Assembly (NCBI GenBank): GCA_947561395.2
Contig: OX387182.1
Span: 8,108,595-8,172,594 of the forward strand
Origin: Buxus sempervirens
Lineage: Eukaryota > Streptophyta > Magnoliopsida > Buxales > Buxaceae
Reading direction: 5' to 3'
Length of the DNA: 64,000 bases
A program made the translations under genes and the position numbers. Of this stretch, positions 12,016 to 53,129 are shown one piece after another (within the stretch, counting starts at the first letter, position 1; every line of letters starts with the position of its first letter). Below the pieces are notes generated by a model. It was not told the DNA's origin. It searched no databases and saw only the letters and a list, made by a program, of their open reading frames with translations.

Positions 12016-14440
12016 TGTGCGCACCAAAAATCTGGATCCTAGATCGCACACCGGGCGCACCTTTGGTGCGTGCCTCGGGACATTCGGAGTCGCCACTGCC
12101 TGAGAGTGCAGGCAGACACGATTTTGCCCTAACCGGGTCTAAGTCTGGTCTGCGGCTTATTAGAGATCTAGCTAAGTCCTCGGTTACGTCCGGGGAAGCC
12201 CTAAGGCACCCCGGCCCGCCCTGTCGGTTTGACGGGTCCCTCGGGTCTCCCTGGTTTTTGAGTCAATTTCACCCTTTTCCTAGACCAGCATGCTGACTTG
12301 TAAGGTCTGGCGGGGCCCGCTAGAGGTGTGGGTCCCTTTTTATTTGATTTTATCTTTTTATTTATTTAAGTGATGTGGGTCGGACCCGGGTCCCGTTGGA
12401 AGACCCGTGGGCTGTCATGGTTGGGCCTTGGGCCCAGTAGGGTTATTGGGTAACCCTTTTTTGGTTATTTAAATTTTATTTATTTACACTTTTATTTGGG
12501 CTTGATGGGCTTGGATTTGGCCCATTAGCCAAAGGTCAAGGGGCCCGGGCCTGTTTATTGAAAACAGGCCTGGTATGGGCCAGTCAAAAGTGGGCCCCAC
12601 AAATGGGCCTATGGTAATCTTGGTGGGCCCATCTAGGCCCACAGTCTTTTATTGGGCTCACAATAGCCCAAATTGTCTAAAAGGCCGGTTCGGGCCAGTT
12701 CGGGTCGGGTTAAGTCCAACCGGGCCAGAAAATTGTGTTTTTTAAGCTACTTTACATTTTGCCCGTATTTCCTCTACGGTCCGCCTTGACCGTGAATTAA
12801 TTACGGTCTCCTCTGTCCGTGAATTAAACACGGTCCAGGCTGGACCGACCTGAGTTTACGGACGCGACTTAGTTTACATGTTTGCTGCCGATTCTCCCTG
12901 GGATCAATTCCGGCTGTCTTTTTGGGATCTCCAATAACTTTTGTGGTGATTCCAAGTCCTTGGAATTCTTCATTTCCTTCTTTTGACTTGTAAAGTCATC
13001 TTTTTCTTCTTCTTTTGCATCTTAGAGAAGTGAGATTGTCTCTTAGTCACCCACAGTCAATTTCCAGGAAGGGAATGAGGGGAATTTACAGGGGTGGAAT
13101 AGTTCTAAAAAAAACATTATAGTAAAATGAATTAGTTTAAAGTATCCATGTTAATTCATGAATAGCCTCTTCCTTTTTAATGAAATAATCACTTTAATTT
13201 TAGCCTCTCATGGCCTTAAACAAGTAACAAACAGGTTAGAAGCATTGGGATAAAATAAAGAAAATAAAGAGAAGTTAAAAGTAATTATACTTTACTTGCA
13301 AGAAATTACAAAAATACTTACAATGTAGCCTTCTTGTTGATTGGTTGTTCTTTGTAGTGTCCTAGTAATTTCAGCAGCGCTTCCGCGTCCCGTTAGATTT
13401 CACAGATTGAATTTGAAAGGGATTTGACAGGTTCCTTTGTCAAATGGGTGGAAGAAGAAGGTTTAGGCAAGGTTTTGGAATGGCAAGGGTATTTTGGACA
13501 TTATATTGGCTTGGGTAGGGTGGTGGCAATTGGGCAGGGCTTGGCCGTGGGGAGCACCAGGAGGGAGAGGGAGGAGGCCAGAGAGGGATGGCTTGTTTCA
13601 ATGAAGGGGGGTGGCCTCTCTATTTATAGGCAAAAATCCCGTGCCCGTATTTGAAGTACGGGCGTGCCTTGCCCGTACTTCAAGTACGGGCGTGCCTTGC
13701 CCGTAATTCAAATACGGGCGAAAAACGAATATTTGCAATTATCGCAGATTCTTCCGTAAGGGACGCGTGTCCCGCCGTACAGCGACGCGTGTTTCCTTCT
13801 AGAAGCTTGCCCGTATTTGAAATACGGGCATGCCTTGCCCGTACTTCAAATACGGTCCAGCACGTTTTTAAAATGTTGGATTTCAAATGCTTTATTAAAT
13901 TTGATTTATTTAAAGATTTTTATCCGATTTTTTTATTATTTTATTATAAAAAACGAGATTCTTTTATTAAAATATTATTAAAAAAACAAAGATATTTTTA
14001 TTAAATGATTATTTTATTTATTTAATTCATTTATTCTGCTTTTTGCTGCTGTTTTGCCACATGGGCAGCTTTCTTTGAAATTTCAACTACCCATAACTTT
14101 TCCGTCCGATGTCCGATTTCAGCAAATTTGGTGTTGTTGGAATCGGCTCGGAACCCACTATCCACTGGGATCAAATTGGGCAGTTGAATTGGGTTTGAAC
14201 AAAAAGTCAACTTTCGCTTCCCCAAAAGTTTGACCGGCTCATAACTTCCTCATCTGGACTCCAATTCCAGCAAATCCAGTTGCGTTGGAACCGTGTCGGA
14301 ATGCTCTTTTCAATGAGATGAAGTTTGATGGCCAAATTCTCTTGAATCAATAAGTCAATTTTTGACCCCCTCAGGGTTTGACTTTTAGTTTGATTTTTCA
14401 TTTTTCTTTATTTTGGGGGTGCAAAAATCAGGTGCTAACA
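12016..14440 (-). repeat. Element 1, 5' LTR (complete, 2425 bp)
   Basis: On the minus strand it starts TGTTAGCACC at 14440 and ends GGTGCGCACA at 12016, giving TG...CA ends with short inverted ends. The adjacent primer site and the match to 1-2379 define both borders. The palindrome cluster lies at about 13643-13856. Confidence 0.95.
13620..13629 (-). promoter_or_regulatory. TATA box in Element 1 5' LTR
   Basis: CTATAAATAG on the minus strand is the promoter copy that would drive gag transcription of Element 1. Its position matches the box in the 3' LTR. Confidence 0.75.
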
Positions 14441-15243: not shown

Positions 15244-17876
15244 TTACCTGTTGCTTGACGTGTTGCCACGTTGATGTTCTTCTTGTTCACGTTGACGTGA
15301 ACTATTCCCCTGCATTAAATAAATGAAATTTATAATCAAACTTATTATGAATTCAAAAGAAAGAAATACAAAACATTAATTGGTTAGGTGGTCATACCTC
15401 TCGTCTAGACCCAGACGCCTTACTGCTACACCTCATCGGGCCACGCTGGCATGTCCTTTTGTTGTGACCAAATTGTTTACAGATACAACACCGTAGTGTA
15501 CTTGATCTACGTACTTCACCCGTGGTGCATGGTTCATCTGCCTCTCTCCTTCTATTTTTCTTCGGTCTTCCAGTCAAACGACGAAGACAAGGAGGCATCA
15601 ATGGCTCCACCTCAACTGTTGGCCACATCTTTTGATCCGGAATTGGATGAATCATTTCAGCATATGCCCTCAAGTATGTGTCAACCCTATAACATTGGTC
15701 ACAATAGTTCTCTAAATTCTCCCTTCTCCATCTTATGCATTGTACTGCATGCTTACATGGTATCCCTGACAAATCCCACACCTTGCAAGTACATGTCCGT
15801 GGACCGAGCTTTACAATATATCTGCTTGTTTCATCCTCCTTTACTTCATATTCATCTTGACCGGCAAACAATACACGACAGTTCCTTGAAGCCCTGATTC
15901 TTGCATCCAATATGCCACAAACTTTGGGGGTTACCAATGTAGTCCATGTCAATGCAGTTTGGTGTCGTTTTTGAATTTTTACCATCCACCTCGACCTTAT
16001 ACCATCCACTAAAGATATGATAGACTTCTCTCTATGTTCACCAACCCACTGATTGAAAGACTCTGTCAAGTTATTTGTAATGTGATCATTCTTCACGCGC
16101 ACATCAAAAGCGTGTCTCGACCAAGTAGATGGAGGGATTTCCTTCAGCCAATCATATGCCTCAGGTGATGCATCCTTGATCCGCTCCATTGCATCCTCGA
16201 AGTCAAATACATGATAGGCTCTAGCTGCTGTCCAGAATAAATTCTTCAATAAAACACCCTTGTGAACTGTTTTGAAGTTGCTATAAACATGTCTTGCACA
16301 ATAACGCTGGGTAGCATATGGGAAGATGTCTCCAATTGCCTTTATAATACCCTATAAAGTGTAAAATAAAATAAAGTTACGAATTATAGCAAATTAAATA
16401 CCTTCTGTTTAATCTAGCAAATGAATGACTTAAAAGTTAAACATTAATAAATACCTTCTGTCTATCTGACATGAAAGTCCATGGTTGATCCACACTTCCA
16501 ATAATCATGTATAAGTATTGTAAGAAAAAGGACCAACTATACTGTGTTTCTGCTTCAACCACTGCAACAGCCAAAGGAAACAAACTACCATTCCCATCTA
16601 ATGCTATTGCAGCTAACAATACTCCTCCAAATGGACCCTTCAAGTGACAACCATCAAGTCCAATAAATGGTCGACATCCTTGAATGAATCCAATCTTCAT
16701 TGCATTAAAGCTAATGAAGTATCTCTTGAATCTGGGAGTTGAAGAGGGACCCAACCGCTCTGACTCAATCTTTACCAAACTCCCTGGGTTGGTAGCTCTA
16801 ACAACTTCAGAATATCTCCATAGCATCCCATACGCCTGTCCATGCGTTCCCTCTACGTCTTCAATTGCCTTCCTCCTAGGCCTCCTTAACTGCATATCAC
16901 TGGCCTCAATACCATACTGAGAATGGATGATCTCTCTAATAGATGAAATAGGCAACTTTGGATTTGCACGAAGTTGTGGAATAATCTTATCCGATATCCA
17001 TCTAGAGTTTGCTTCAATATTCTTGTGTACACGAGTACAATTATGTTCTGGCTGAATTGTCTTGATCATGAAAGTCATCCCATCAGGTCTCAGTGATGCA
17101 TGTAGTCTCCACCTACAATCCGCATTAGCACACCCAACTGTGACCCGAGTTCGCTCATTCTTCATTCTCTTTATGTTGAATCCTTCTCTAATCGCAAACT
17201 CAGCTAGGGCTTTTCTGAAATCATTGATGCTAAGAAATAGCATACCTTTCTCAAGTTTAGGCTCCTCCATACCATGTTCCATATCTAAATCAAAACTCCC
17301 ATCCTCAACATGTTCTTCATCTATGTCAACTAAACTTTGGTAGTCCGGATCGGATTCATAATCAGAGAGTTGGTTTCCATTATCTTCTTCATATTCAAAA
17401 CCTACTTCAGCATGTTCTCGTGGTACGCGTGTGTCATTCAACACTTCTTCACCTTCTTCTTCTCCCTCATTACTTAACTCATCTTCATCTTCATCTTCAC
17501 TTATTATAACCTCCTCCTCTACCCAATCATCATCATCATCTATTGATTCTTGTTCCTCACTTCTTCTTCCACCTGAAGTAGCCGCTTCCTCTTGCGTACA
17601 TTGAGATATTAGAACTGCAGGCTCTTCCTCCACGACCAAGTTGATCTCATTTACATTGCTATAGAGCTCAAACACCTTCATTAATATTGTATCACCATCA
17701 ATAACGTGTAAATCTTGTGAACCAGGAGCACGATACTTGATGGTGAAAGCACTACCAACATCAACCTTAGCTACATGCATGGCATCATCCGCCAAATCAA
17801 GATAACTATATCTGTCTTTATCCACATTATCAATGTAATCAACGCCTCTTGAGTGATGAAATTTAAGTGTATGCAT
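15244..17876 (-). CDS. MULE (MuDR-type) transposase, three exons
   Basis: This encodes the enzyme that cuts and moves the MULE. Exon 1 is 17876-16455, exon 2 16351-15398, exon 3 15309-15244. Introns have GT/AG ends (CAGAAG|GTATTT...TTATAG|GGTATT; GAGAG|GTATGA...ATGCAG|GGGAAT) and keep the frame; across the first junction the text reads MSDRQK-GIIKAIGDIFP. Exon 1 has an acidic stretch (about residues 115-200), then the MuDR DNA-binding region with FNIKRMKNERTRVTVGC and CRWRLHA, then the DDE core start FIGLDGCHLKG. Exon 2 has the SWIM zinc finger CTCKVWDLSGIPCKHAV and a knuckle CCICKQFGHNKRTC. No stop or frameshift was seen, so it may be intact. The promoter side is now separated from the MULE right end by Element 2. 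Exon 3 and the stop are inferred from splice signals only. Confidence 0.88.
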
Positions 17877-18253
17877 CTTGTTCAGAAGAAACTACGCCTA
17901 ACAAATTGAACAAGATGAAATTAGCTACACATCACACCATATCACATGACAGCCAACAGCAAAAGTCTGGACAAACAAGGACTAATAGCAATAAACTTTG
18001 AAAATTGAGGCACTAAACTTTGCTACCATGTTGGGGTACAGGTTTGAGTTCTCACCTATTTGGTTCCTAAGTTTAGCAGATAATCCCTAACATTATGCCT
18101 ACTTATGTTGACATCAAGTCATAGATCATGAAGTCAAGCCTGTGATATTGTATCAAACATGAAGACACTCATGGCCTCAGCCCTTAATTTCATCCATCAG
18201 ATTTACCAGGAAGTGCACAACAAGGCAACTTAATTTCATCTACCTTTGAAATC

Positions 18254-18258
18254 ATTAT
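18254..18258. repeat. Target site duplication ATTAT, left
   Basis: ATTAT here is repeated at 30532-30536 directly after the other end of Element 2. This 5-bp duplication confirms both borders and shows that the MULE was the insertion target. Confidence 0.85.
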
Positions 18259-20070
18259 TGTGAGACATGGAAAAAATCAATTTAATGATTTCCTAATCAT
18301 CACACGGGATTATATAAAACAAAGAGTCACCACCATTCAATTTAGGTGTGAATGGACACCAAAATATTAAATAAGCACAAAAGGCAATTTTTAGGGCAAA
18401 ATATCCCTCCTAAAAAAAACAACCAGAGATGGGTAAGGGGATTAAGTTATGAACAGGGGAAGGTGTTAGGCACCCCTATTCATCCACACAAGGTGGTTGC
18501 CAGGCATTGTTCATGTTTTACAAATAAAAAAGGCTTGCTATAAAAATCAGGAAAAATCTCAAAAAAGCAAAATTGTATGGTTTTTTCATATGAATAGTCT
18601 GATTGATCCAGAACTTTCAAACATGATCATACCATTCCTAGGGTTTCATGATCAAAATAAAATTGAGATAAAATCAAATAAAATCAATTTAAAGTGAAAA
18701 CTCCAAAAATCTGGCTTCAAGTCAAATTCTAGAAATCTAGAAAAATATGATTTTTATAAAATATTTCAAAATTGAACTTGAATAGTCCAGGAGATAGATA
18801 AAGCCCAAATTTCACATTAAATCTGAAAATCAAAACCAAAAATACCCTCATTGATGAAAAACACCAAAAGGGGAGAATTTAGACCGTAGGGTCTTCTCTC
18901 AAAAGTGAAAAACAATTTAAAAATCATCTCATGAAACCCTAGACATTATTTTCAGGCTTCTGGATTCAGATCTACCATATTGATCATGATAAATCCAAGA
19001 TCCTAGCTTAAAATCACAAAACTCACGAAAACAGTGCTGTAGGTGCAAAAGTGGCAAAAATCCAAATTTTGGAAAATAGTGGGGATCTCATGCTATAGAC
19101 ATCATAGATTCATGTTATTCATTCAGATATATCATAAAAAGCATTAAAACATGATCAGGATATTCAAAATAGCCACATCTCACAAATTAGAGCACATGGG
19201 GGTCTACCCTACGGATCCACTTGTTCCCCTTTCCCCTAGTTCTCTCTTCACGTTTTACGGTTAGAGAGACTCTTGAGGTACTTAGAGATAGGTTTGGGTA
19301 TACAAACACAATCAAAGGCCTTATTCTAGAAAAAAAGAAAAAAACAGTTATGGGGTTCTATTCTAGGGATCCACCTGTTCTCCTTTCCCCTAGTTCTCTC
19401 TTCACGTTTTACGGCTAGAGAGACCCTTGAGGTACTTAGAGACAAGTTTAGGAATACAAAAACAGATATGGCCTTATTCTACAGCAATAGAGATGATCCT
19501 ATTACTTCTAGAATTGAAGACAGAAAATAAAAAGGGATAGGAGACTTACCTGGATTGAGCAGGCAGAGCAGCAAGGATTCCTTTCCTTCTCTTGGAGCTT
19601 TTGATTCTTCAAAATTTCGTGGCTCTTAGCTAGAGGAGAGACCCTCTATTTATAGGCAAGCACAGGGGTAAGGCTAGTCCAAAGGTTTGGCAAGATAGAG
19701 TTTCAGTTTTAGTTAAACACAAGATCATGCCAATCCTTTATCCACAAGGATAAATGAGATAATTCGAACAGATAAATAAGAGAATTCGTTTATCCAAGAG
19801 AGATATTTGGGTGCAGATAAGGCTGAAAAATTAAAAAGGTAAAATTCGCACAAAGACCCCCGTGACCGTATATATATTACGGTTGCGCCCTGCCCGTATT
19901 ATTAATACGGGCACGCCGTGACCGTATATCAACTGCAGATATGACCAGTTCGTAAACAAAATACGGTCATGACCAGTTTAGCCAGATTTTACACTTTTTT
20001 GACTTGTTTCAAATCCCAATTAATATTTTCAATTATTTTCTCATTTTTAGTGCAATTTGGGGTGTCTACA
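18259..20070 (-). repeat. Element 2, 3' LTR
   Basis: On the minus strand it starts TGTAGACACC at 20070 and ends CATGTCTCACA. It includes the conserved box around GGTGTTAGGCACC near 18455-18475 that is shared by several LTRs of the window. Confidence 0.92.
19646..19655 (-). promoter_or_regulatory. TATA box in Element 2 3' LTR
   Basis: CTATAAATAG on the minus strand. The palindrome cluster (19862-19975) lies about 200 bases upstream in the sense direction; its best member has arms GCCCGTATTA and TAATACGGGC. Confidence 0.75.
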
Positions 20071-20087
20071 GCTGCCCCCTCTTTGCT
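20071..20087 (-). promoter_or_regulatory. Polypurine tract of Element 2
   Basis: AAAGAGGGGGCAGC on the minus strand directly precedes the LTR start TGTAGACACC. Confidence 0.85.
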
Positions 20088-23000
20088 GGTAATTGGAACC
20101 AATTACGAGCAGAGAGCAAAAAAGACCCACCAATTGCACTTTCTGAGACTTTTGTCTAACTAATTGCACTTTGCAAGGATCAAATGGATGATTTTATAAA
20201 AAAAGAATTGATTGTGGAAGATTTGCTAAGAAGTCCCTCAGCTTAAGGGCCAAATCCTCCTCTCTCCTCTCACTGAGCTCTCGTGGCTATGAAGTGAGAT
20301 TTGAGACAAAATTTTTAAATAAAAGTGGGTAAGGTGGCAATCCTTGCAACTTACAACTAATATAAACATTGATCTCCTAAAAAGTGTGGAGAAAATGATG
20401 AAAAAGACAATTTTTCTAGGTGGCCTGCAGTTGTAGCACAATGAACAGCAAAGAACGGACACAACTCAAAATTGCACATTTGAAAAACATCTCATTAATT
20501 GAACTTGCTTTGGTCCAACAAAGAAATGATAAAAACATGGATTCGAAGATAGCCAATGAAACCCCTGCTTGAAGTGGGGTGGCGTCTCTTCCTTATCTCA
20601 GATTTCTTGGAGCTCTCGTGGCTATGAAAAGAAATCTGAGACAAGCAATTTTTGAAAAGAATGTGGATTTAAAATTGACCACTGCAAACTCAATTGATTT
20701 TGATGTTTTTCACTTTTTGAATTTTCCTGATTGATTTTCTTATTTGATATACCTGGGTGCCATTTGATGCCCAAACCTGTGCTTGAATACTCTGCAACTT
20801 GCTTTTGCTTCTTTATCTTCTTGCTCTCTCAATAACGATGTATGTGCCATGACTGCCCATAACCTGTCTTCATGCTTTTTAATTGCCCAAGTAAATGCCC
20901 TCATCTTGATTGATGGATCATGATCTGTTGATCTAACCTCATGCCTTTACAACCCATGATTTGTCTTTCATGCCTTCTTGCTGCCTCAGTAAAATCCTTC
21001 TTCATGATTGAAGAATTGGGAACCCATGTCTAATGAAGAAAACATGCCACTGCTTCGAAGCCTTTTCTTTTTTTTTTTTTTTTTCAAATCCGAAGACTAA
21101 AGCTTGATTGCTTCTTTCAGATGTTGGAATTCATTCCAATGAAAACCCAGAAGGAAAGACACTGAGCATGCCCCAGTTTTGATTGTTTGAAGAAGTATTT
21201 GCCCCTCAGTAGAGATGATCCTCTTTTTTCCTTTTTCTCTTTTTTTTTTCTTTTTTTTTTTTTAACCTTTGCCAAAAAGAAACCCTAATAGAAGAATGCA
21301 AATTCAAATGCAAATATAAGAAAATATGTTTTATACTAGTGGCCTCAGAATTCTCTAATGCTTGCAAAACAAATGTTTTATGAAAAGATATAGATTCTCA
21401 TCATAGGCCAAAAATATATTTTTTTTGCTTTTTTGTGTTTTTATATTTTTTTGAAAAAATGATCCAATCATTTATTAGCATATAGTCCAAAAGAATTAAA
21501 ATCAAGTTGAATAATGGGAAGATTATTTCAAAAAATGAAGAAAGACCAAAATAAGCCTTCGGAACCTTTAGAATCATTCCCATGACCATCGGCTTGTCAA
21601 TTGATGCTCCAGATATGACGAATCTTTCAATCTGACTATTTTGCCCCAGTCTAGAAAGACATTTTCCTTCATCCAATTGAAGAGCAATTGTTTCTCCATT
21701 GTATCCATGATATGAGAATTTATGACTTCAACTTCAGCAATAATTTCCTAATGGCAATTTTGATGGCCATCAACTTATTCACGATTCATATCATTGTTCT
21801 GATTATGTTGTTTCAGTCTTGAAAAGAGAATTTTCCTCAATCACTTGAAGAGTGACTGTATCTCAAAATAACCACCAACATGAGGACATCACCTGGATCT
21901 ATGCCAATTCTGGACTTTCCTCTCTAACAATTTCCTTCTTGTAGATAGCTGATTATTTGCCATGTAGAGCCCTTTCGGGTTTTCACTACATTTCCTTCAT
22001 TTTTCCTTTTTCTTTTTCTTTTTCTTTTTTTTAATCCTTCATCACCAGCAACTATGTAGTCAAAGCTGTCTTAATTCAAAATTTCTTAATCAAAGAGGGC
22101 TTATGAATGGGACGAAACGAAGGCTTGGTGTTAGTTTAGAAAGAAAAAGGAATAAAAGGCTCAAATACCCTATGATCAAATGGGTTAACTGAAATTGTAA
22201 CTTTTAAGGCATTTTTTCCCTTGGAATGAATAAAAAATTGTCCCCCAGTAATGAAGTTCTTCCTCCATTTTGATTTCTTCATTTGAAACTTATTCTCCAG
22301 TATTGAACTTCTTTTTTCCATTCTTTTCTTCACAATTTTGAAGACATTCTCCAAATAGCATTTGATTATCTTTTTTTTTCTTTCTTTTTCTTTTTTTTTT
22401 TCATTTCTTTGCCCCATTTTCTGAAAACATATTCAAAATTCCTTTTGAACTTTAATAATTGTCCCTTCATTCCTTTTTTTTTTTTATGCCTTAATAAATT
22501 TGCCCCAGTGTGGGGTTACAATTCTCAGTTTAGGTTACTTGGAAAAATGTATCAGGCTCAAAGGGTTTAACTAGGGATTTAAAAATTTTTGAGGATATAA
22601 GAAAGAAAGGCCTCTTATCATTTTAAGAAAAGTTTGAATTTTAGACTTGGTAGAGTTGCACTACATGACTGGCTCAGGATTTTTTATTCTCTTTTTTTTC
22701 TTCTTAATCACCTTTTGTCAACATGAAAGCCTCTTTAAATAGAACTTCTGTTATGAACAATTTTTTCACCTTTTGATCAATCTTATGAATTTGGATTCTT
22801 TCCATCAAATGATGACCAATTCTATTTCCAACAAAAAGGTCAGATTCTTCCATATTTTCAAGTGCAAAGCCCCAAAATTTCTTCAAACAATATTATCAAC
22901 TTCCCCTTGAACGAATCAGCAAGTGGTGCGATCCTTTTTGTATTCTAATGCAGAAACTTCAAATCTTCTTCTATCTTTTCTGTTGAAGACTGTGGGTCAT

Positions 23001-23327
23001 CTTTGGTTCCAAAGGCCATAAAATTGGTCACTTCACAATTTTGCAGAATATTCTTCTCATGACACTTAAAAGATTTGAATTTTCATATAAAATGTCTTTT
23101 TTTTCGATTTTGGTCTCAAAATTGAGCCCAATGTCAAAGTCATATTCAACTTAATGAAATTCAATAGGAGATATGATTCATAAGTAAAAGGACCTTGCTG
23201 AAAACCTTTTTTTTTCTAGAAAAATGTTAAAGGGAAAAATCTTTTTTTTTTTTTTTTGAAGAGTCTTTATTAAAATAACTTCCTGAGAACAAGGCTCTTT
23301 AGGATCCTCAGGAAATGTGCATTCTTC
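20088..23327 (-). other. Element 2 3' non-coding region
   Basis: About 3.2 kb with several T-rich runs (near 21070, 21240, 22380, 22470, 23240). I see no pol motif and no clear array. Short phrases such as 'tgccccagt' recur and also occur in the Element 1 3' region, suggesting common ancestry. Confidence 0.65.
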
Positions 23328-25097
23328 TTATGCAGGTTTCTTTTCAGAGAACATGGGAGTTCGAAAACTGCCCCTGTTCTCAAAGGCAAAAATTGACTTT
23401 TCTCCCTTTTTCAGATACTTTCTTTCCCCTGATGAGTGAGGCAAGCCTTCTTGCTTATAACCAGGAGCATTTCTTTCAAGATAAACCCTGACTGTTGGAC
23501 CAATCGGAGTGATAAGCTGAGAAGGGTCAAATCTTCTTTCTCCAGAGAAAATTGCCCCTATTGCATTTGAGCTACCTGCCCCATTGTTATCGGTAGGTGG
23601 GATGGGAGTGACTGAATTGAATGATAAAGAGTTATTATCCAGAAAATCCTGAATTGCATGCTTTAGGGCCAAGCAACGATCTGTGGTATGCCCTGGAGTG
23701 CTCATATGATAATCACAGATTGCAGATGAATCATAATTCTTCCCTTTGCTTGCATGAGGATTTGGCAACCTCAAAGTCACATAACCCTTCTGAAGTAAGG
23801 TAGGCAAAAGTTCAGATGGTCTCATAGGCAGTTTAGAAAATTCCCTTCTCTTCCTTACTTCTGTTTCCTCCTTCACAGGCTGTGCAGAAGGGACATTAAT
23901 TTGAATAGGCAGCAAAGGAAATTGATAGGTTGGCTTGATAGGAGGTGGATGGGCATTGATTTGAAAGGGTTCCCTGGGAAGTTGTACCATATTCACTTCT
24001 GCTTCTCTCCTTTCTTCATTCTTTATTTTTCCCTTACCATTCTCCTTTTTCTATGTAGAGAAAGTGGTGGAAGCTTCCTGGTTCAACACTGCAGAGTAAT
24101 CAGCTATTTTCCCAGACTTGATCCCATCTTCAATTCTGTCTGCCACTTGCACTAGGGCAGCAAAGTTGGTGGTAGTTTGACCCACCAAGTGACTGTAAAA
24201 TGGTTGCCCCAATGTCATGATGAAAGTTGAAATCATTTCTGGTTCTCCCATGGGTGGCTTGACTTGTGCAGCCAACTCCCTCCACCTTTTGGCATATTGC
24301 CTTATGGTCTTATCATTTCTCTTTGTCATCCTCATCATGTCATACCTATCTGGTATAATCTCAGAGTTGAACCTGTATTGTGCCAAAAAGGAATCTGCTA
24401 AATTCTTCCACCTTCTTATTTTCCCATGATCCAAAGTGGTAAACCACTTCAAAGCAGCTCCAGTTAAACTCCTCTGGAAGAGTTGAATTAGTATGCCGTC
24501 ATCCCGGCCAAAATAGCATAAAGCCCCGCAGTATAACTTCAAATGGCTCATTGGGCAGCCAGTGCCATCATATTTATCAAAATCTGGGCATTTAAACTTG
24601 GCCGGTAGACATACATCGGGGTATAGGCACAGATCTTCAAAATTGGTGCCCCCAAAGTTATTCACCCCTTTTACCTCCCTTAGTTCATCTTGAATCATCT
24701 CCAGCCTGTGCATGAATTTTCTTTCTATTTCATCCCTCATCTTTTCTTTTTCATTCTCTTTCTCAGACTCAACCATCTCCTCCCTAATCAGTATAGGTTC
24801 AGGGGTAGGTTCAGAAATGGGTTCAGGAATAGGTTGAACCGGAGGTGGGATATTGATTGGAGGTGGAGGTGCTTGGTTCTGGGCTTGAACTTGTTGGGCC
24901 TGCACCAATAGTATGTTCTCTAGCATTCGGGCTAATCCTGCCACTTGTTCTTGGAGTAGGACAACATCTGGATGAGGAGCATCAGCTTCGTTTTCAATGG
25001 GATTCGTGGCGCGAGCTCTTGATCTGGTTACAGGAGCTATGATTGCAAGTGTATTAGTACCTGGCCACAAAATAAAGGAGAAAATATCAGTGCCCAA
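23328..25097 (-). CDS. gag: Gag polyprotein, Tat/Ogre type, with one in-frame TAG
   Basis: Two consecutive ORFs (25097-24051 and 23996-23328) are in the same frame, separated only by one TAG stop and 18 further codons. The first holds the Gag core: LCLYPDVCLPAKFKCPDF, DKYDGTGCPMSHLKLYC, FQRSLTGAALKWF, NLADSFLAQYRFN, YAKRWRELAAQVKPP. The second has FSKLPMRPSELLPTLLQKG and a Cys/His motif CDYHMSTPGHTTDRC, then a 90-residue tail. The N-terminus is Pro-rich. The true start may be shortly inside the ORF, near APVTRSRARA, because a splice-acceptor-like GGCCAG lies just before it. The stop could be decay or a readthrough site; the context TAG-AAA-AAG is not a classical plant readthrough signal. No protease follows. 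Confidence 0.85.
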
Positions 25098-25250
25098 TTA
25101 ATCTCATTCACATGCCTAGGAATGCCTATCTGCAAGCTGGTTGAACACGAGTTTGGATTTTTCCTTTATTTGATTCTTTTTTTTTTCTTTTTTTTTTTGA
25201 ATTGTTGGAATATTCTAGGGCTTCCAACAGGTCCCACAAAAAGAGAAAAA

Positions 25251-27210
25251 GATCTGAAATTCAAAGGCTTTCAGAGGCCCAAAGAAATTTTTGGAAAAGT
25301 CTGAAATTCAAAGGCTTTCAGAGGCCCAAGGATATTTTTGAAAAAAGTCTGAAATTCAAAGGCTTTCAGAGGCCCAAAGGATATGTGTCTATAATTCAGA
25401 GGCTTATAGACGACCCAAAGAATATGTGTCTATAATCCAGAGGCTTATAGACGGCCCAAAAAGGTTGTGTCTAAAATTCAGAGGCTTTTAGACGGCCCAA
25501 AGAAATGATTTGTCTAAAATTCAGAGGCTTTTAGATGACCCAAAGAAATGATTTGTCTAAAATTCAGAGGCTTTTAGACGGCCCAAAGGATATGTGTCTA
25601 TAATTCAGAGGCTTATAGATGGCCCAAAGAAACGATTTGTCTAAAATTCAGAGGCTTTTAGACGGCCCAAAAAAAATGATTGTCTAAAATTCAGAGGCTT
25701 TTAGACGGCCCAAAGAAATGATTGTCTAAAATTCAGAGGCTTTTAGAAGGCCCAAAAAGGTTATATGTCTATAATTCAGAGGCTTATAGACGGCCCAAAG
25801 AAATGATTGTCTAAAATTCAGAGGCTTTTAGACGGCCGAAAGAAATGATTGTCTAAAATTCAGAGGCTTTTAGACGGCCCAGGGATATTTTTGGAAAAGG
25901 TCTGAAATTAAAAGGCTTTCAGAGGCTCAGGGATATTTTGAGAAAAGATCTGAAATTCAAATGCTTTCAGAGGCCCGAGGATTTTTGATAAAAGTCTGAA
26001 ATTCAAAGGCTTTCAGAGGCCCAAAAGAAAAAGGTCTGAAATTCAAAGGCTTTCAGAGGCCCAAAAGATCTGAAATTCAAAGGCTTTCAGAGGCCCAAAA
26101 GAAAAAGGTCTGAAATTCAAAGGCTTTCAGAGGCCCAAGGATATTTTTGAAAACAGTCTGAAATTCAAAGGCTTTCAGAGGCCCAAAGGATATGTGTCTA
26201 TAATTCAGAGGCTTATAGACGGCCCAAAGAAATGATTGTCTAAAATTCAGAGGCTTTTAGATGGCCCAAAGAAATGATTGTCTAAAATTCAGAGGCTTTT
26301 AGATGCCCCGAAGGAGATGTGTCTATAATTTAGAGGCTTATAGACGGCCCAAAGGAGATGTGTCTATAATTCAGAAGCTTATAGACGGCCCAAAGAAATG
26401 ATTTGTCTAAAATTCAGAGGCTTTTAGACGGCCCAAAGGATATGTGTCTATAATTCAGAGGCTTATAGACGGCCCAAGGATATTTTTTGAGAAAAAAATC
26501 TGAAATTCAAAGGCTTTCAGAGGCCCAGAGATTTTTGAGAAAGGTCTGAAATTCAAAGGCTTTCAGAGGCCCAAAGAGTTTTTGAGAAAAAGTCTGAAAT
26601 TCAAAGGCTTTCAGAGGCCCAAAAGGAAAAGGTCTGAAATTCAAAGGCTTTCAGAGGCCCAAAGGATATGTGTCGATAATTCAGAGGCTTATAGACGGCC
26701 CAAAAAGGAGAAAGATCTGAAATTCAAAGGCTTTCAGAGGCCCAAAGGAAAAAGATCTGAAATTCAAAGGCTTTCAGAGGCCCAGGGATTTTTTGAAAAA
26801 GGTCTGAAATTCAAAGGCTTTCAGAGGCCCAAGGAGTTTTTTGAAAAAAGTCTGAAATTCAAAGGCTTTCAGAAGCCCAAGGAGTTTTTGAGAGAAAAGT
26901 CTGAAATTCAAAGGCTTTCAGAGGCCTAGAGGGATTTTTGAGAAAAAGTCTGAAATTCCAAGGCTTTCAGAGGCCCAAAGAGATTTTTGAGAAAGAGTCT
27001 GAAATTCAAAGGCTTTCAGAGGCCCAAAGGGTTTTGAAAAAGTCTGAAATTCAAAGGCTTTCAGAGGCCCAATGAGTTTTTGAGAAAAAGTCTGAAATTC
27101 AAAGGCTTTCAGATGCCCAAGGAGTTTTTGAAAAATCTGAAATTCAAAGGCTTTCAGAGGCCCATGAGTTTTTTGAAAAAGTCTGAAATTCAAAGGCTTT
27201 CAGAAGCCCA
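25251..27210. repeat. Element 2 leader array of about 50 hairpin units
   Basis: Units of roughly 35-42 bp share a 7-bp stem, a nine-base loop TTCARAGGC and a spacer containing GGCCCAAAG. Three stem classes are mixed along the array: TCTGAAA/TTTCAGA, TCTATAA/TTATAGA and TCTAAAA/TTTTAGA. Each is perfectly paired in most units. It lies between the primer site and gag, so it would be in the 5' leader of the genomic RNA. Short ORFs in the array follow the repeat and are not genes. Confidence 0.93.
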
Positions 27211-28700
27211 AGGAACCTTTCTCTCACATATTTTTTTTATTCAAAAGAATTTTTTTTGTTTTTTTTGAAGTATTTTATTCAAACTTGTTTCCCTTTATTA
27301 TTATTTGAAGGTTAAAAGAAGAATTTAGTGGGAAAAACTGATTAAAGTTGAATATTCCGAGAAAACCGTATACACAGTACGGTCCAGCCCTGCCTGTATT
27401 CAAATTACGAGCAAGCCGTGACCGTATGGAAAACACGGGCGAGCCTAGCCCGTATAACTAATACGGGCAAGCCCAGCCCGTGTACTAAATGCGGTTTTAC
27501 GGAACCCTGTTATATTTTTCCAGTTTTTACATGGTTTGATCACTTTAATTATTCATCCAAACATACGGTTACCCAGTGCAAAGCTTCTAAACTGTCCCAA
27601 AGTGGACCTTGGCCTTTTTGCTAAAACACATGCTTAGGAGGGCACACGTACCCTCTGGATTGACTCCATATTCTAGAATTTGGTACCCTTTTGTTGCCTC
27701 TTGTGTGTACATAGGGTAGGATTGATTCTAAACAGAGTTAGAGACTCTTCCTATGGGCTACACCATGCTTAAGAACAAACATATTTGGGACCAATTTTCT
27801 CCCCAACCAATGGGCACCCTGACACCCCTATGACATGAAAATAATGCAAAACAATAGGATTACCTTGTTACCTTATTTACCTTCAATATGGCATCTGAAT
27901 TATGCCCTGGTTTGTAAGCCATGCATACGGCCTTCCCACAATCATACAAACCCATATCCCCACGTAATTGTATACTTTAGCCAAAAACGTGTAACTCCAC
28001 CTTCAAGCGTAGGGGTTTTGGGTTTTGGCTTAATGGCAACTTAGCACTCAAGCCTAGTGATGATCAGAATCCCAGATCCACATTATCATCACATCATTAG
28101 CTCAAAGTTCTAAGGTAAATGTTTTCACTTTCGCTTTCTGAAGTATTGACCTCGTTGCGCCAAGCTACACACATTCGGGTTCAACTTCCTATAGGTTAAG
28201 GGTAGGCTGTGTAAAAAAATAAAATGTGCACAGTGCATTGTAAAAATAGGTTACATTCACAACGTCCCAAACCCTTGCCACTCTTTTCGCAGCCATGCAT
28301 AAACAAACCAAGGCATAATAGGAAAGCATATTTAAAATAAACAAGTAAATAAAGCAATCCTATAGCACCTAAAACATGCTCATAAAAAAATCATCTATCA
28401 TGCAAACATATGATCATGTTATACACCCAAAATCATCATGGAGATCATGCTGAAAATTAAAACATGCTATCATAAAAATATAGCAAGAAATAAGCATGGT
28501 TCAGCAAAACGGACCTCCCCTACGCATGTTTGTAGAAACAATCCTATAAATCCAAATTAAGCATGTTTCTACCCCCATGAATTCTTGAGCAATAATTTAG
28601 ATTTAAAACATACTCATCATGCTTAAGAACACAAAATAGCAAGCAAATTAAAAAATATCAAAAACATGAAATAAAACACCAAAAAGCTCAAATCCACAAG
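27211..28700 (-). other. Element 2 proximal leader with palindromes
   Basis: About 1.5 kb of leader without coding signals. At 27365-27500 there is a cluster of CCGTA/TACGG inverted repeats like those in the LTR U3, for example arms GCCCGTATAA...TAATACGGGC around 27450. Otherwise AT-rich sequence with nothing recognised. Confidence 0.6.
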
Positions 28701-28718
28701 TCCCCAGCAGAGTCGCCA
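28701..28718 (-). promoter_or_regulatory. Primer binding site, tRNA-Arg type
   Basis: TGGCGACTCTGCTGGGGA on the minus strand, close to the 5' LTR end. It differs from the Element 1 primer site at two positions. Confidence 0.88.
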
Positions 28719-28720
28719 GT

Positions 28721-30531
28721 TCTGAGACATGGAAAAAATCAATTTAATGATTTCCTAATCATCACACGGGATTATATAAAACAAAGAGTCGCCACCATTC
28801 AATTTAAGTGTGAATGGACACCAAAATATTAAATAAGCACAAAAGGCAATTTTTAGGGCAAAATATCCCTCCTAAAAAAAACAACCAGAGATGGGTAAGG
28901 GGATTAAGTTATGAACAGGGGAAGGTGTTAGGCACCCCTATTCATCCACACAAGGTGATTGCCAGGCATTGTTCATGTTTTACAAATAAAAAAGGCTTGC
29001 TATAAAAATCAGGAAAAATCTCAAAAAAGCAAAATTGTATGGTTTTTTCATATGAATAGTCTGATTGATCCAGAACTTTCAAACATGATCATACCATTCC
29101 TAGGGTTTCATGATCAAAATAAAATTGAGATAAAATCAAATAAAATCAATTTAAAGTGAAAACTCCAAAAATATGGCTTCAAGTCAAATTCTAGAAATCT
29201 AGAAAAATATGATTTTTATAAAATATTTCAAAATTGAACTTGAATAGTCCAGGAGATAGATAAAGCCCAAATTTCACATTAAATCTGAAAATCAAAACCA
29301 AAAATACCCTCATTGATGAAAAACACCAAAAGGGGAGAATTTAGACCGTAGGGTCTTCTCTCAAAAGTGAAAAACAATTTAAAAATCATCTCATGAAACC
29401 CTAGACATTATTTTCAGGCTTCTGGATTCAGATCTACCATATTGATCATGATAAATCCAAGATCCTAGCTTAAAATCACAAAACTCACGAAAACAGTGCT
29501 GTAGGTGCAAAAGTGGCAAAAATCCAAATTTTGGAAAATAGTGGGGATCTCATGCTATAGACATCATAGATTCATGTTATTCATTCAGATATATCATAAA
29601 AAGCATTAAAACATGATCAGGATATTCAAAATAGCCACATCTCACAAATTAGAGCACATGGGGGTCTACCCTACGGATCTACTTGTTCCCCTTTCCCCTA
29701 GTTCTCTCTTCACGTTTTACGGTTAGAGAGACTCTTGAGGTACTTAGAGATAGGTTTGGGTATACAAACACAATCAAAGGCCTTATTCTAGAAAAAAGAA
29801 AAAAACAGTTATGGGGTTCTATTCTAGGGATCCACCTGTTCTCCTTTCCCCTGGTTCTCTCTTCACGTTTTACGGCTAGAGAGACCCTTGAGGTACTTAG
29901 AGACAAGTTTAGGAATACAAAAACAGATATGACCTTATTCTACAGCAATAGAGATGATCCTATTACTTCTAGAATTGAAGACAGAAAATAAAAAGGGATA
30001 GGAGACTTACCTGGATTGAGCAGGCAGAGCAGCAAGGATTCCTTTCCTTCTCTTGGAGCTTTTGATTCTTCAAAATTTCGTGGCTCTTAGCTAGAGGAGA
30101 GACCCTCTATTTATAGGCAAGCACAGGGGTAAGGCTAGTCCAAAGGTTTGGCAAGATAGAGTTTCAGTTTGAGTTAAACACAAGATCATGCCAATCCTTT
30201 ATCCACAAGGATAAATGAGATAATTCGAACAGATAAATAAGAGAATTCGCTTATCCAAGAGAGATATTTGGGTGCAAATAAGGCTCAAAAATTAAAAAGG
30301 TAAAATTCGCACAAAGACCCCCGTGACCGTATATATATTACGGTCGCGCCCTGCCCGTATTATTAATACGGGCACGCCGTGACCGTATATCAACTGCAGA
30401 TATGACCAGTCCGTAAACAAAATACGGTCATGACCAGTTTGGCCAGATTTTACACTTTTTTGACTTGTTTCAAATCCCAATTAATATTTTCAATTATTTT
30501 CTCATTTTTAGTGCAATTTGGGGTGTCTACA
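28721..30531 (-). repeat. Element 2, 5' LTR
   Basis: Matches 18259-20070 at a constant offset of 10462, shifting by one after a deletion in an A-run. Its terminal bases read TCAGA where the other copy reads TCACA, one substitution. The palindrome cluster is at about 30324-30440. Confidence 0.92.
30107..30116 (-). promoter_or_regulatory. TATA box in Element 2 5' LTR
   Basis: CTATAAATAG on the minus strand. This is the likely promoter for Element 2 gag RNA. Confidence 0.75.
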
Positions 30532-32607: not shown

Positions 32608-34785
32608 TTCTTTGTATCCAGTGGAAAAGGCCGGATACAAGGAAGCTTTAGTGTATCCGGCATCATAGGCCGGATACATTAAAGCCCTTGTGTATCCGGC
32701 CTGATATACCGGATACATACGTTTTGCTCAAAAATTAGGGTTTTCCGAGAGAAATCACTTTTTACCATCATATCCCTCATTAAATGAGGGGAAATCTCGG
32801 AAACAGCCTTAGGGTTAAGGTTGATGGGTTCTAGACATTAAGTTGTGTCTACCAACAACCCTAGCCTTTGCCTATAAATAGGAGGCTCCTCCTCAAGCAA
32901 ATGGCAATTAACTCTTGTTTTGAATTCTCGCCAAGAACTCCAAGAGAAGAGGGAAACCGCTGCGGAAGTGCTTCCAGAACCCAGGTAAGCCTCAAACTTT
33001 TCTTTTATTTTCTGTCTTTATATTTCTAGATCTAGATCTCTTCTTCTACCTTTCTGTAGAATAAGGCCTTCTATGTGTATGAAAATCCTTCCTCGGCTCA
33101 AAGTATCTCGAGACTCCCCCTAGCCGTAAAACGTGAAGGCGGGATCTAGGAGAAACGAGACTGGGGATTGACCCTAGTACTAGAACCTATGTAGCATAAA
33201 GCCTTTTGATTGATTGTAAACTGTTTCATATTCAAAGTACCCTTGATTATCTTGAAGAACCATGTTTAACGGGGAGAGAGAACAGAGGGAAACGATAATG
33301 GAATGGAACCCTAGGCTGTTTTAGAACCTTATTTTGATGAATATGTATGCATGCTATTGATCTTGTTTGGTTTTTCACACTTGCACATACATATCACAAT
33401 TTTGGCTGGATAGGCTCACATTTGGGGATTTATTACATTCATTGAGATAAATCTCAAATAAATAGCCTCAATCAATTCTGAAATGTCTTTGGATGATTTT
33501 TAAAGGTTTTGTGTTCATCTTACACGAATTGCACACACTTTGTCACATGGGTTTTACTCAAAATGGACTTTACTTGACAGCAACTGTACCCCAACTTCGG
33601 ACACTCATAACTTCATTGTCCGGATGAATTTTGGAGTGATTCTAGAACCATGGAAAAGGTGTGGCTGTCTAGTTTATGTCCACCAAATTTCATTAATTTC
33701 TATCAAGCGGATTTTTGACACCTCTCTGTCGAAGTTGATTGGACAGTTCAGGTTCAAATACAGAACTTGTCACTTCGACGGAGTGCCATGTGTTCGTTTT
33801 AAGTCCGATTCGAGTGATTTTTGTTTTTGGGCACTCCTTTATGATTCTATTTTTAAATCCAATTGATTTCATAATTTTTTGATTTAAATTGTGTCGTGGA
33901 GAGCAGATTTACTCAGAACTGCTCAATAGCACTTTTCTGGGTCAATCTGTGATCCTCGGGGCCTGTTCGGGAAGTCACCTAAGGCACATCCGAATGAGTT
34001 TTGGTATGAGGCTAGTTTCTTTTGAAATATGGCCATACAGACTTCATTGACACCAAATTTCACGGATTTCTATGGAGTAGATTTTTCTAGGTGATTTTCC
34101 AAAGTTGCCTACTTGTTGCTTTTAATCATCCCCAGCAGCAACTTTAAAGGAGCATAACTCCTAGGATTTCAACCGGATTGACTTGAAATTTTGCATGAGT
34201 CCCTTATTTACTAAGATCCTTCAAATAGATTTGGTTTGGTTCAATTTAAAATTGGATTTGAATGATTTCAAGACAAATGGCATTACTTTTTACCAAATTT
34301 CCCGGATTTGCCTCAACTTGGCTTTGTACATTCTTTTGCTTGGATTTTTATCCTTTTATGACATTTCAGAAATGATATTGACATAAGAGAAGATTTAAAA
34401 TCCATTTGGATCTTCATGTGAATATATCATACACTTGTTCCTTTTTCAAGGCTTTTCATGATTTTTTAGCAAGCTTCCTATTTTCTTTTAGCATGAACAA
34501 ACACTTGGCAACCACCTCGTGTGGATGAATAGGGGTGCCTAACACCTTCCCCCGTTCATAATCTAATCCCCTTACCCATCTCTGGATTTGATTTTCAAGT
34601 AGGGTTATTTTTACTCTAGAATTTGCCTTTTAGCACCTTTTGGCTATTTTTGCTTATGATTGAATCATTTGGTGTCCATTCACACCCTATAGATCTGAAT
34701 GGTGGCGACTCTCCTAATTTTTACATTGAGCCCCGTGTGTTGACGGAGAGATGATCATTCCGGTGATTTTTTCCCGTGTCTCACA
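32608..34785 (+). repeat. LTR remnant (Tat type), 5' part removed by MULE insertion
   Basis: The sequence from 32608 matches the solo LTR at 40182-42886 starting about 590 bases into that LTR, in the same orientation. It ends CCGTGTCTCACA at 34785 with no primer site after it, so it is probably a solo LTR. It holds a TATA box at 32872-32881, a GTATCCGG...CCGGATAC palindrome cluster at 32615-32716 and the conserved GGTGCCTAACACC box near 34535. Its left part should lie beyond the MULE, outside the window. Confidence 0.8.
32872..32881 (+). promoter_or_regulatory. TATA box in LTR remnant
   Basis: CTATAAATAG on the plus strand, about 155 bases downstream of the palindrome cluster. Confidence 0.7.
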
Positions 34786-36520: not shown

Positions 36521-38814
36521 TGTGAGACATGGGAAAAAATCACCGGAATGATCTTCCCTCCGTCAACACACGGGCTCAACGTAAAAATGGGAGAGTCGCC
36601 ACCATTCATGATTTTGGGGTGAGAATGGACACCAAAGATTCAAAAGTAGGCAAAAATAGCCAAAAGAAACATTCTAGGATAAAAATAACCCTACTTGAAA
36701 ATCAAATCCAGAGATGGGTAAGGGGATTAGATTATGAACGGGGGAAGGTGTTAGGCACCCCCATTCATCCACACGAAGTGGTAGCCAAGTGTACGTTCAT
36801 GCAAAAATAAGAAAGCTTGCTAAAATCCTAGAAAACCTTGAAAAATGACCAATGTATGATATTTCCACATGAAGATCTAAATGGATTCTAGATCCTCTCT
36901 CATGTCAATATCATTTCTGGAATATCTCAAAAGATGGAAATCAAAGCTCAAGTTGCTCAAAACCAAGTTAAATCAAATTCGGTAAAAAGTATGTCATTTG
37001 CCTTGAAATCATTCAAATCCAATTCTAAATTAAACCAAACCAAATCCATTTGAAAGATTAGGGTAAATAAGAGTCTCATGCAAAATTTCACTTCATTCCG
37101 ATGAAAAATCTAGGAGTTATGCTCCTTTGAAGTTGCTGCTGGGGATTTTTAAAAGTGGTAAGTGGGCAACTTTGGAAAATTGTCTAGAAAGATCCACTAC
37201 ATAAAAGTCCACGAAATTTGGTGTGATTGAATTCTGTATGGCCATCTTTCCAGAGAAACTAGCCTCATACAAAAATCCCTTCGGATGTGCCTTGGGTGGT
37301 CTCCCGAACAGGCCCCGAAGATCACAGATTTACCCAGAAAAGTACAAATGAACAGTTCTGAGTAAATCGGCTACCAATAATTCAAATGGAATCCAAAAAT
37401 TATGAAATCAACTGGATTTAAAAATAGACTCACAAACGAGTACTCAGAAACAAAAATCACTCAAATCGGACTTAAAACGAACACATGACGGTCCGTCGAA
37501 GTGACAAGTTCTGTATTTGAACCTGAACTGTCCACTTAACTTCGACAGAGAGGTGTCAAAAATCCGCTAGATAGAAATTTGTGAAATTTAGTGGACATAA
37601 ACTAGACAGCCTCACCTTTCCCATGGTTCTGTAATTACCCCAAAATTCATCCGGATGATGAAGTTATGGGTGTCCGAAGTAAGGGTACAGGTGCTGTCAA
37701 GCTAAGCCATTCTTGAAGAAAAACCCAAATCCGAAAATTGATAAAAATGTGTGATTCGTGCAAGATGAACACAAATACTTTAAAATCATCCAAAAGACAT
37801 TCCAGAATTGATTGAGGCCATTTATTTGAGATTTATCACAATAAATGCAATAAACCCCCAAATATGAGCCTATCCCGCCAAAATAGTGATATGTATGTGC
37901 AAGTGTAAAAAAACCAAACAAGATCAATAGCATGCATACATATTCATCCAAATACGGTTCTAAGACAGCCTAGGGTTCCGTTCCATTATCGTTTCCCTCT
38001 GTTCTCTCTCCCCGTTAAACACGGTTCTTCAAGATAATCAAGGGTACTTTGAATATGGAACGGTTTACAATCAATCAAAAAGGCCTTATGCTACATGGGT
38101 TCTAGCACTAGGGTCAATCCCCAGTCTCGTTTCTCCTAGATCCGCCTTCACGTTTTATGGCTAGGGGAGTCTTGAGATACTTTGAGCCGGGGAAGGATTT
38201 CCACACATACAAACAAGGCTTTACACTACAGAAAGATAGAAGAAGAGATCTAGATCTAGGAATGTAAAGACAGAAAATAAAAAGAAAAGTTGAGGCTTAC
38301 CTGAGTTCTGGAGGCGATTCCGCAGCAGTTTTCTTCTTCTCTTGGAATTCTTCTTTGCGAGAATTCAAAACAAGAGTTCAGTGCCTTTTGCTTGAGGAGG
38401 AGCCTCCTATTTATAGGCAAAGGTTAGGGTTAGGGTTGGTGAGAATGGTAGACACAACATAATGTCTATAGCCCACCAACCTTAACCCTAAGGCTATTTC
38501 CGAGATTTCAACTCATTTAATGAGGGACATGATGGTAACAAGTGATTTCTCTCGGAAAACCCTAATTTTGAGCAAACTTAAAGTATCCGGTATATCAGAC
38601 CTGATAAAAAAGGGCCTTAAGGTATCCGGTACATGGTACCGGATACACTAAGGCTCACATGTATCCGGTATGAGTATCCGGATACGGGAAAGGGTACTTG
38701 TATCCGGCCTGAGTATCCGGATACAGGTAAAAGTTTATTTTCTTCAATTTCTGTGCTGGCTTTCCAGGAGATAATGATTTTTGATGATTGTTTGTGCAAT
38801 TTGGGGTGTCTACA
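36521..38814 (-). repeat. Solo LTR (Tat type) inserted in the protease region
   Basis: On the minus strand it starts TGTAGACACC at 38814 and ends CATGTCTCACA at 36521; length 2294. Target duplication AATAC occurs at 36516-36520 and 38815-38819. Removing it rejoins the host frame (ETEI then PSLDWSPEG). It has a TATA box at 38407-38416 and a palindrome cluster at 38585-38727. Confidence 0.93.
38407..38416 (-). promoter_or_regulatory. TATA box in solo LTR
   Basis: CTATAAATAG on the minus strand, downstream of the GTATCCGG palindromes in the sense direction. Confidence 0.7.
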
Positions 38815-52477: not shown

Positions 52478-53129
52478 CAGCCGTTTTCCACTACGAGGAA
52501 ATCCTGTTTCGATTCCACTTGGGAGGGCTTGGGGACGACACGCGTCCCAGGCGGTCACACTCCTCATCAGTCGCTTTTGAGAGGAAATTGGCTGGCTCCG
52601 TTTTTGAGCCAGCCAACGCCGATCGGAGCCGTTTTCAAAAAATTGCTCATGTACGCATTTAAACACTCTGAGCGTATTCTACCTAATAACCTTCACGCTC
52701 GAGCGAGCGCAAATCTCCTCCAAACCGCAACTCTCGGGTTTCTGAGATTCCCCTCTTGAGCATTGACGCTCGAGCGAGCCTAAATCAGCCCAAAACCACC
52801 ACCCTGGGTTTTTCTGAGTTTATATTACCAAAACATTGACGCTCAAGCAAGCGCAAATCTCACCCAAACCGCCATCCTGGGCTTTTCTGATAATGTAGAA
52901 TCACGCTTGGACGCTCGAGCAAGCCGAAATCGGTCAAAAACCGCCTCTCGGGCTTCTCTGAGTAGCGATTACCTAAGCCTTGACGCTCGAGCGAGGGTAA
53001 ATCGTACCCAAACCGCCACCCTGGGCTTTTCTGAGGTATTATTATTATTATTATACCCTTCATGCTCGCGCACGCGGAATTCGCTCAAAAAACGTCGTAC
53101 TTAATGTTTTTAGAATCCTTACACATGCG

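Follow-up and report, generated by a model that had tools for sequence, protein, structure and literature searches.

What is conserved in a tandem array when the two arms of its inverted repeats change together? The question is raised by a leader array in a 64,000-nucleotide stretch of Buxus sempervirens DNA (contig OX387182.1; this whole stretch is hereafter the window), for which the original prediction held that a hairpin is the conserved entity, either as an RNA signal in the 5′ leader or as a DNA palindrome renewed by template switching. Covariation is often taken as proof of functional RNA structure, and the roughly 31,000 units of one pattern in this genome, together with further types, form a natural test of covariation from copying alone.

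The host element and its leader

The array lies in the leader of a high-copy, gag-only LTR element of 12,274 bp (~12.3 kb) on the − strand. The predicted leader position is borne out by a gag frame on the − strand, two near-identical LTRs and motifs resembling a primer-binding site and a polypurine tract; a five-base direct repeat, ATAAT, is also present at both outer ends of the element (read from the printed flanks).

28720–30531, − strand: 5′ LTR, 99.1% identical to the 3′ LTR
28701–28718, − strand: putative primer-binding site TGGCGACTCTGCTGGGGA, adjoining the 5′ LTR, assigned by sequence
25098–28719, − strand: untranslated leader from the 5′ LTR to gag, 3.6 kb
27365–27500, − strand: leader short inverted-repeat group #2, ACCGTA..TACGGT and GCCCGTAT..ATACGGGC
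25253–27204, − (element) strand: tandem array of 45 inverted-repeat units, from the unit parse and TRF
24054–25097 (24051 at widest), − strand: gag open frame with a Retrotrans_gag domain (PF03732, E 1.6e-12)
23331–24050, − strand: second open frame, 3′ of gag, without a Pfam match at 0.001
20071–20084, − strand: polypurine-tract-like AAAGAGGGGGCAGC, preceding the 3′ LTR, assigned by sequence
18258–20070, − strand: 3′ LTR, starting TGTAGACACC on the − strand

The array fills the gag-proximal half of the leader. Inside 18258–30531, the two gag-region frames are the only − strand open reading frames of at least 110 amino acids, a threshold that any shorter, decayed pol pieces would escape. Within the array, the sense strand has no frame of at least 110 amino acids and the other strand has one, of 141 amino acids. 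The Retrotrans_gag domain agrees with the Ty3/gypsy Tat lineage, although it is not specific to Tat; from the form of the primer-binding site and the element layout, the element is probably Tat/Ogre-like.

The first in-frame ATG of the gag frame comes only at codon 58, and TTTTGTGGCCAG ahead of GTACTAATAC resembles a splice acceptor, which would make the leader a possible intron of the gag mRNA. Elsewhere in the window, MULE transposase frames (DBD_Tnp_Mut, MULE, SWIM) and hAT-type frames (Dimer_Tnp_hAT, DUF659) occur at 15395–17891 and 61259–63998, and two 1.4-kb inverted arms of 22-bp tandem units, 88% complementary and 0.6 kb apart, occupy 53067–56581.

Anatomy of the focal array

A tandem array is present where it had been predicted, and a parse that tolerates mismatches divides it into 45 units rather than about 50 (38 in a mismatch-free parse). 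Each unit consists of 7-bp arms around a 9-nt loop, at a spacing of 34–52 bp. As claimed, pairing is kept in almost all units: seven of seven pairs are Watson–Crick in 44 of the 45, the exception being TCGATAA/TTATAGA at 26673. The loop attributed to every unit, TTCARAGGC, is exact in only 39. In the focal arrays, the longest stem per unit has a median of 7, compared with 4 after shuffling, and 7 is reached by 1.5–4% of shuffles.

The three predicted stem classes were recovered as TCTGAAA (n = 25), TCTAAAA (n = 11) and TCTATAA (n = 9, with the mismatched unit counted here). They differ at pairs 4 and 5 only, not at three central pairs, and the supposed alternation gives way to a block order, with TCTGAAA at both ends, TCTAAAA and TCTATAA mostly in two internal blocks, and each type tied to its own spacers. 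An eighth pair, G–C, is usual in TCTATAA and TCTAAAA units and missing from TCTGAAA units. Changes affect 1 of 630 stem positions and 6 of 405 loop positions (one-sided P ~0.02, by hand), a difference that would fit constraint on the stem, as expected of a selected RNA hairpin, and that counts against an origin by copying.

Copies and founder types

The array recurs in other elements of the same genome. A degenerate unit pattern, TYTRWAATTCARAGGCTTWYARA, has 31,243 matches in the 676.5 Mb searched (247 contigs), and its reversed control has none. Forty candidates were scored of 2,501 from the array search (58 match rows) and 40 of 3,254 from the leader search (42 match rows). The 36 parsed arrays, two of which are near-copies (L005 and L006), hold 909 units, 6 to 47 per array; L015 and L036 are possibly cut at the locus edge. 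L009 (the focal copy again) and L026 (the same place as L004) were excluded throughout, and L006 was kept in the 909- and 902-unit parse, the linkage and the ATG counts and left out of the 860-unit, tree, covariation and 997-unit sets. Units with more than four differences from their own type were dropped from change counts and type linkage (7 of 909, leaving 902).

One of the three perfect stems is found in 787 of the 909 units (543, 155 and 89). With few exceptions, a stem type is accompanied by a characteristic upstream spacer, loop base and flank on the 3′ side, which indicates that three founder types were multiplied. Covariation inside the array thus comes down to two double changes that separate the founders and were multiplied by duplication. 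Over all 902 units the arms change at rates of 0.0079 and 0.0119 and the loop at 0.0106; the focal deficit of stem changes is gone, contrary to the expectation for selected RNA stems. Two or more stem changes against the own type occur in 8 of 860 units (35 arrays), none of the eight is compensated, and in the 36 sampled arrays every compensated stem belongs to one of the founder types. There is no clear ongoing compensation inside arrays.

Sister families and boundary units

Two sister-family loci, L082 and L083, have arrays of TCTATAA and TCTAAAA types without any TCTGAAA unit. Their leader is 81.6% identical to that of the focal element over 462 bp near the primer-binding site, and gag is 76% identical over 284 bp; the retention of an array at the same place in a sister family favours selection on an RNA hairpin. 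The sister-family leader has other inverted repeats (TATCCGG..CCGGATA and more). These loci add the stem type TTTGAAA/TTTCAAA, and L086 adds TTTAAAA/TTTTAAA. Nearer to the primer-binding site, L082 and L083 have a 76–78-bp repeat with the stems TTTGGAA/TTCCAAA, CTTGGAA/TTCCAAG and mismatched forms, for example CATGGAA/TTCCAAG, around an 11-nt loop with a related core. In L082, L083 and L084, the 76–78-bp repeat holds a second hairpin, TTGATTGGT-AAAAAGGAG-ACCAATCAA, with variants that have A·C on the + strand, and a long run of CTTGGAA..TTCCAAG with a 76-bp period lies at C1:7839222–7841678 (G000).

A related unit borders the focal array.

25204–25228 (8133798–8133822 of contig C1), − strand: gag-side boundary unit; the + strand reads GTTGGAA-TATTCTAGGGC-TTCCAAC

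Its loop is two bases longer around a related core, and its arms are different. There are 35 GTTGGAA/TTCCAAC boundary units, in 30 of 41 loci, and the pattern BTTGGAATATTCTRRGGCTTCCAAV has 9,320 genome matches. Among the matches listed for this pattern, all on C1, C–G is commonest, with some T–A and four G–C, and the unpaired forms are chiefly G–G in boundary units, then C–A. A survey by loop and flank of 41 loci, in which pairing was not required, returned 997 units: 869 have seven pairs, 113 six, 12 five and 2 four, and the single unit below four pairs has none. This high degree of pairing again speaks for the RNA hairpin.

Pairing against tree-aware nulls

Arm positions are paired in register in 92.4% of cases, compared with 8–37% when one arm is slid by 1–3 bases (212 distinct units). 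The tree test was performed on these 212 of 371 distinct units (947 in total) after merging equal cores, with events on random branches as the null. At the unit level, the null reached the observed G in 1 of 400 runs for pair 5 and 11 for pair 4, and in 115, 104 and 393 runs for pairs 1, 2 and 3 and 149 for pair 8. For the paired fraction, runs that reached the observed value numbered 0–3 of 400 at pairs 1, 2, 4 and 5, 11 at pair 3 and 205 at pair 8; almost no variation is seen in this tree at pairs 6 and 7. Raw covariation was rejected as proof of the hairpin: hairpin pairs make up 2 of the top 12 covarying column pairs, and a flank column takes part in the other 10. Because the flank columns covary equally strongly, covariation alone does not single out the hairpin, whereas complementarity does.

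At the level of unit types, 62 of 63 cells pair among nine types, eight of which are fully paired, and the tree-aware null has a mean of 43.8 and a maximum of 56 in 4,000 runs. With mismatched types added, 110 of 119 cells pair among 17 types (null mean 78.7, maximum 104; 4,000 runs) and 140 of 154 among 22 types (null maximum 131). Taken singly in the 17-type test, pair 5 was reached by the null in 5 of 4,000 runs, pairs 1, 2 and 4 in 238, 182 and 230 and pair 3 in 1,431, so that only pair 5 is strong by itself. The nine unpaired cells of the 17 types comprise two sense G·U, one antisense G·U and six others (hand count). The chief weakness of the type-level test is that units of 25 columns give poor trees; a MAFFT alignment of the types, in which those with 11-nt loops were displaced by two columns, was left unused.

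Pairing is therefore conserved between unit types above the tree-aware null. The original prediction of a conserved hairpin holds between types, where 0 of 4,000 simulations reach the observed pairing, and does not hold as repeated covariation inside the array, where it goes back to the two double changes among founders. In the tree of distinct units, pairs 5 and 4 alone are significant on G and pairs 1–3 and 8 are not. Between types, at most 3 of the 9 loop-core positions differ, compared with as many as 4 of 7 in the arms. The steadier loop, like the type-level pairing, is a point for a selected RNA, and it is not required by a purely mutational account.

Double changes across the genome

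Double changes were surveyed at pairs 1 to 4 across the genome. Pair 2 has 1,053, of which all but three among the matches listed are T–A, largely one founder type, and pair 4 has no new-type double change in the genome. Pair 1 has 28, 27 of them C–G; among the 20 retrieved, 18 share both flanks, L106 shares only the upstream flank and L105 neither, which suggests about two origins. Pair 3 has three in the genome, all compensated, all C–G and in three contexts. Given 270 and 161 one-sided changes among the 31,243 units, with change spectra counted among the matches listed, a hand calculation predicts ~1.4 doubles, of which ~0.6 would be compensated. This excess is weak (Poisson P ~0.02, by hand). 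Each pair-3 double belongs to a single unit in a redundant array, a setting in which little selection is expected, and the three weakly favour coupled change; the one in L109 looks stepwise, because a one-sided unit of that kind is present in its array as well.

RNA folding, G·U polarity and AUG content

Compared with shuffles, sense unit folds gave z of 0.40, −1.65, −0.85 and 0.26, antisense unit folds 0.41, −1.85 and −0.07, and a 711-nt part of the array 0.92 in sense and −0.56 in antisense (20 shuffles). Units and 711-nt part do not in general show the stability above shuffles that is expected of conserved RNA structure, and neighbouring arms cross-pair in the 711-nt fold, which argues against an RNA hairpin. 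The TCTATAA unit comes nearest to beating its shuffles, 13 of 200 in sense and 7 of 200 in antisense folding equally well. A stable local fold is thus not evident in these predictions, except perhaps for the TCTATAA type, and the predicted RNA signal gains little by folding, with that one of the three types moderately ahead of its shuffles (z −1.65/−1.85) and the five other unit folds at −0.85 to 0.41.

Among one-sided changes, the ratio of sense to antisense G·U is 44 to 30 when distinct flanks are counted and 51 to 33 in the raw count, with no clear bias, and a sense-strand G·U preference as a sign of RNA selection is not established. The eighth pair is often G·T on the + strand, which is C–A in the sense RNA, and is not kept above the null; both observations weigh against RNA selection. 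The TTGATTGAT/ACCAACCAA stem has two sense G·U pairs.

The focal array contains one sense ATG, compared with 20.7 in shuffles, and the next 1.5 kb of leader contains 45, compared with 34.3; the 36 arrays total 314 sense and 548 antisense ATG. The counts in the adjoining leader and the 36 arrays show that the leader is not AUG-free, and an AUG-free translation leader was accordingly ruled out.

Other unit families in the window

A second element of the window, with LTRs at 1–2379 and 12062–14440, has arrays 3′ of gag.

4262–5748, second element: CATGT hairpin units with the near-constant loop GTGAAT and covarying arms
3381–4130, second element: 47-bp unit array with constant flanks CTATTTT..GGGGA and wholly different paired arms

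The CATGT types are CCATGT/ACATGG, CAATGT/ACATTG, TAATGT/ACATTA and three with one sense G·U. Over these six types, 33 of 36 cells pair, a value that the null reaches in 2 of 4,000 runs; a decayed unit at 5731, with one sense and one antisense G·U, was left out. The parse admitted units with three or more pairs and missed GTGGAT loops, such as that of a unit near 5204 (CAATGT..ATATTG) with an antisense G·U. In the 47-bp units, the arms are replaced outright (AACTGT/ACAGTT, AATCATT/AATGATT, AGCC/GGCT) with the flanks kept, and such units occur in the window and at ten other genome loci.

Judged by the longest stem per unit, not every tandem array in the window is a hairpin array. This stem length does not exceed shuffles (P at least 0.17) for the 22-bp, 37-bp, 29-bp, 73-bp, 45.9-kb and 46.2-kb arrays, the 27379 group, the 47-bp array or the two CATGT arrays; the case for the CATGT and 47-bp families therefore rests on arm change. 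Beyond the focal arrays, it stands out in the CCCGTA/CCGG groups at 1581, 13642, 30324, 32628 and 38622. Strong inverted repeats of CCCGTA/TACGGG and TATCCGG/CCGGATA were observed at 1581–1800, 30324–30388, 32628–32717 and 38622–38725 and at 708–860 of L084; these groups lie in LTR and leader sequence and resemble the Sirevirus CGG-CCG motifs. A scan of viral contigs gave 13 stretches with one match each and no array, near chance by a hand estimate.

Origin of the paired arms

We tentatively favour, as the likeliest single account while short of confidence in it, an array of palindromes renewed and multiplied by template switching. The hairpins would be both products and drivers of copying: when the element is reverse-transcribed or its DNA is replicated, a fold-back template switch would copy one arm onto the other and so make and repair perfect stems, and pausing with strand transfer at hairpins would duplicate and delete units. 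The outcome would be a variable unit number, few founder stem types, co-changing arms, and a recognisable loop core and flanks. The range of 6–47 units per array, the inheritance of stem types as blocks with their spacers, the conserved pairing between types, the compensated pair-3 doubles and the like behaviour of the second, unrelated CATGT family in the neighbouring element all support this account, and the complete replacement of 47-bp arms between kept flanks is easier to explain by one switch event than by stepwise compensation. Against it, most one-sided changes stay uncorrected, pair 4 has no new-type double change, the pair-3 excess is weak and the loop core is steadier than the arms. 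The whole-arm replacements of the 47-bp units include no event resolved to one step, and no template switch was seen directly; we infer that template switching gave rise to the paired changes and to array growth. It fits more observations than the RNA-signal version.

A doubtful but substantial alternative is that these are selected RNA hairpins with a nearly fixed loop (sense GCCUYUGAA), which the Gag of the element itself would bind in packaging or dimerisation, with stem letters free as long as they pair. Such hairpins would form an unusually multivalent packaging signal. Their site adjoining gag and the Ty1 leader hairpins (PMC5454406, in its accessible part) add to the evidence for them given above, and a copy with just six parsed units adds to the evidence against. 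We consider it improbable that the units are DNA palindromes bound by a dimeric protein of host or element that regulates transcription or silencing: the analogy with the Sirevirus palindromes (PMC2829016, in part) and the CCGG and CCCGTA groups in LTR and leader here would suit this, but the Sirevirus motifs are sited in LTRs and 5′ of env rather than in a gag leader, one array has three half-site types, and drift in both arms of a single unit would not be expected of a fixed half-site. Equally improbable, and already disfavoured, is a founder effect in which two or three paired types were multiplied by chance and pairing reflects common descent alone, as the equally covariant spacers and the lack of compensated stems beyond the founders would allow, given that the tree-aware null is rejected with unpaired types included and arm pairing survives change in two other families of the neighbouring element. 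The cause of pairing may thus be RNA selection or the mechanics of copying, and the latter is somewhat ahead.

It is possible, if on the doubtful side, that several unrelated Tat-like non-coding families (leader, CATGT, 47-bp and CCGG/CCCGTA) are arrays that propagate by way of hairpins through fold-back template switching in reverse transcription. If arms were created and renewed in this way, covarying arms would arise without selection. Such a process would bear on how Tat/Ogre tandem arrays start and grow and, if real, would explain the origin of Tat arrays, a source of plant satellites.

Comparison with known systems

A literature search by title and start of abstract, directed mostly at neighbouring subjects and covering few subscription papers, found no covarying hairpin arrays in a retrotransposon leader. 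For the known systems, the following comparisons draw on the accessible parts of the cited papers. In the Tat lineage (Ogre, Retand), tandem arrays have been reported from the 3′ side of elements, between the coding part and the 3′ LTR, in agreement with the prediction that known examples are mostly 3′; non-autonomous copies exist, and the mechanism or function of the arrays is called undetermined or unknown (PMC7004042, PMC11963269). Like the focal array, they are short, variable, family-specific repeats in non-coding parts of long Ty3/gypsy elements. The focal array differs in lying in the leader before gag and in having a hairpin as its unit; the word 'hairpin' is absent from the main text of both papers.

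Sireviruses, which are Ty1/copia elements, share with the focal element family-specific palindromes of dyad symmetry in many copies, up to 32, in LTRs and linker (PMC2829016), and small RNAs are reported on their palindromic regions (PMC10760457). Their motifs are 10–20 bp long with a short centre, mostly with a CGG-CCG core, and are found in LTRs and before env (PMC2829016). The focal units have AT-rich 7-bp arms and a 9-nt loop and lie in the leader of an element with a Retrotrans_gag domain.

Ty1 offers the precedent of retrotransposon leader hairpins in which pairing matters, for packaging and dimerisation, with rescue by compensatory changes; its leader has a few unique hairpins and a pseudoknot rather than a tandem array (PMC5454406). 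Template switching creates and repairs hairpins, and one such event can yield a perfect stem or a paired change (PMC8794818), and quasi-palindrome mutation is the subject of PMC3820800. Where described in PMC8794818, these events concern RNA genes and DNA replication rather than the tandem arrays of retroelements, the setting in which the focal array would place them.
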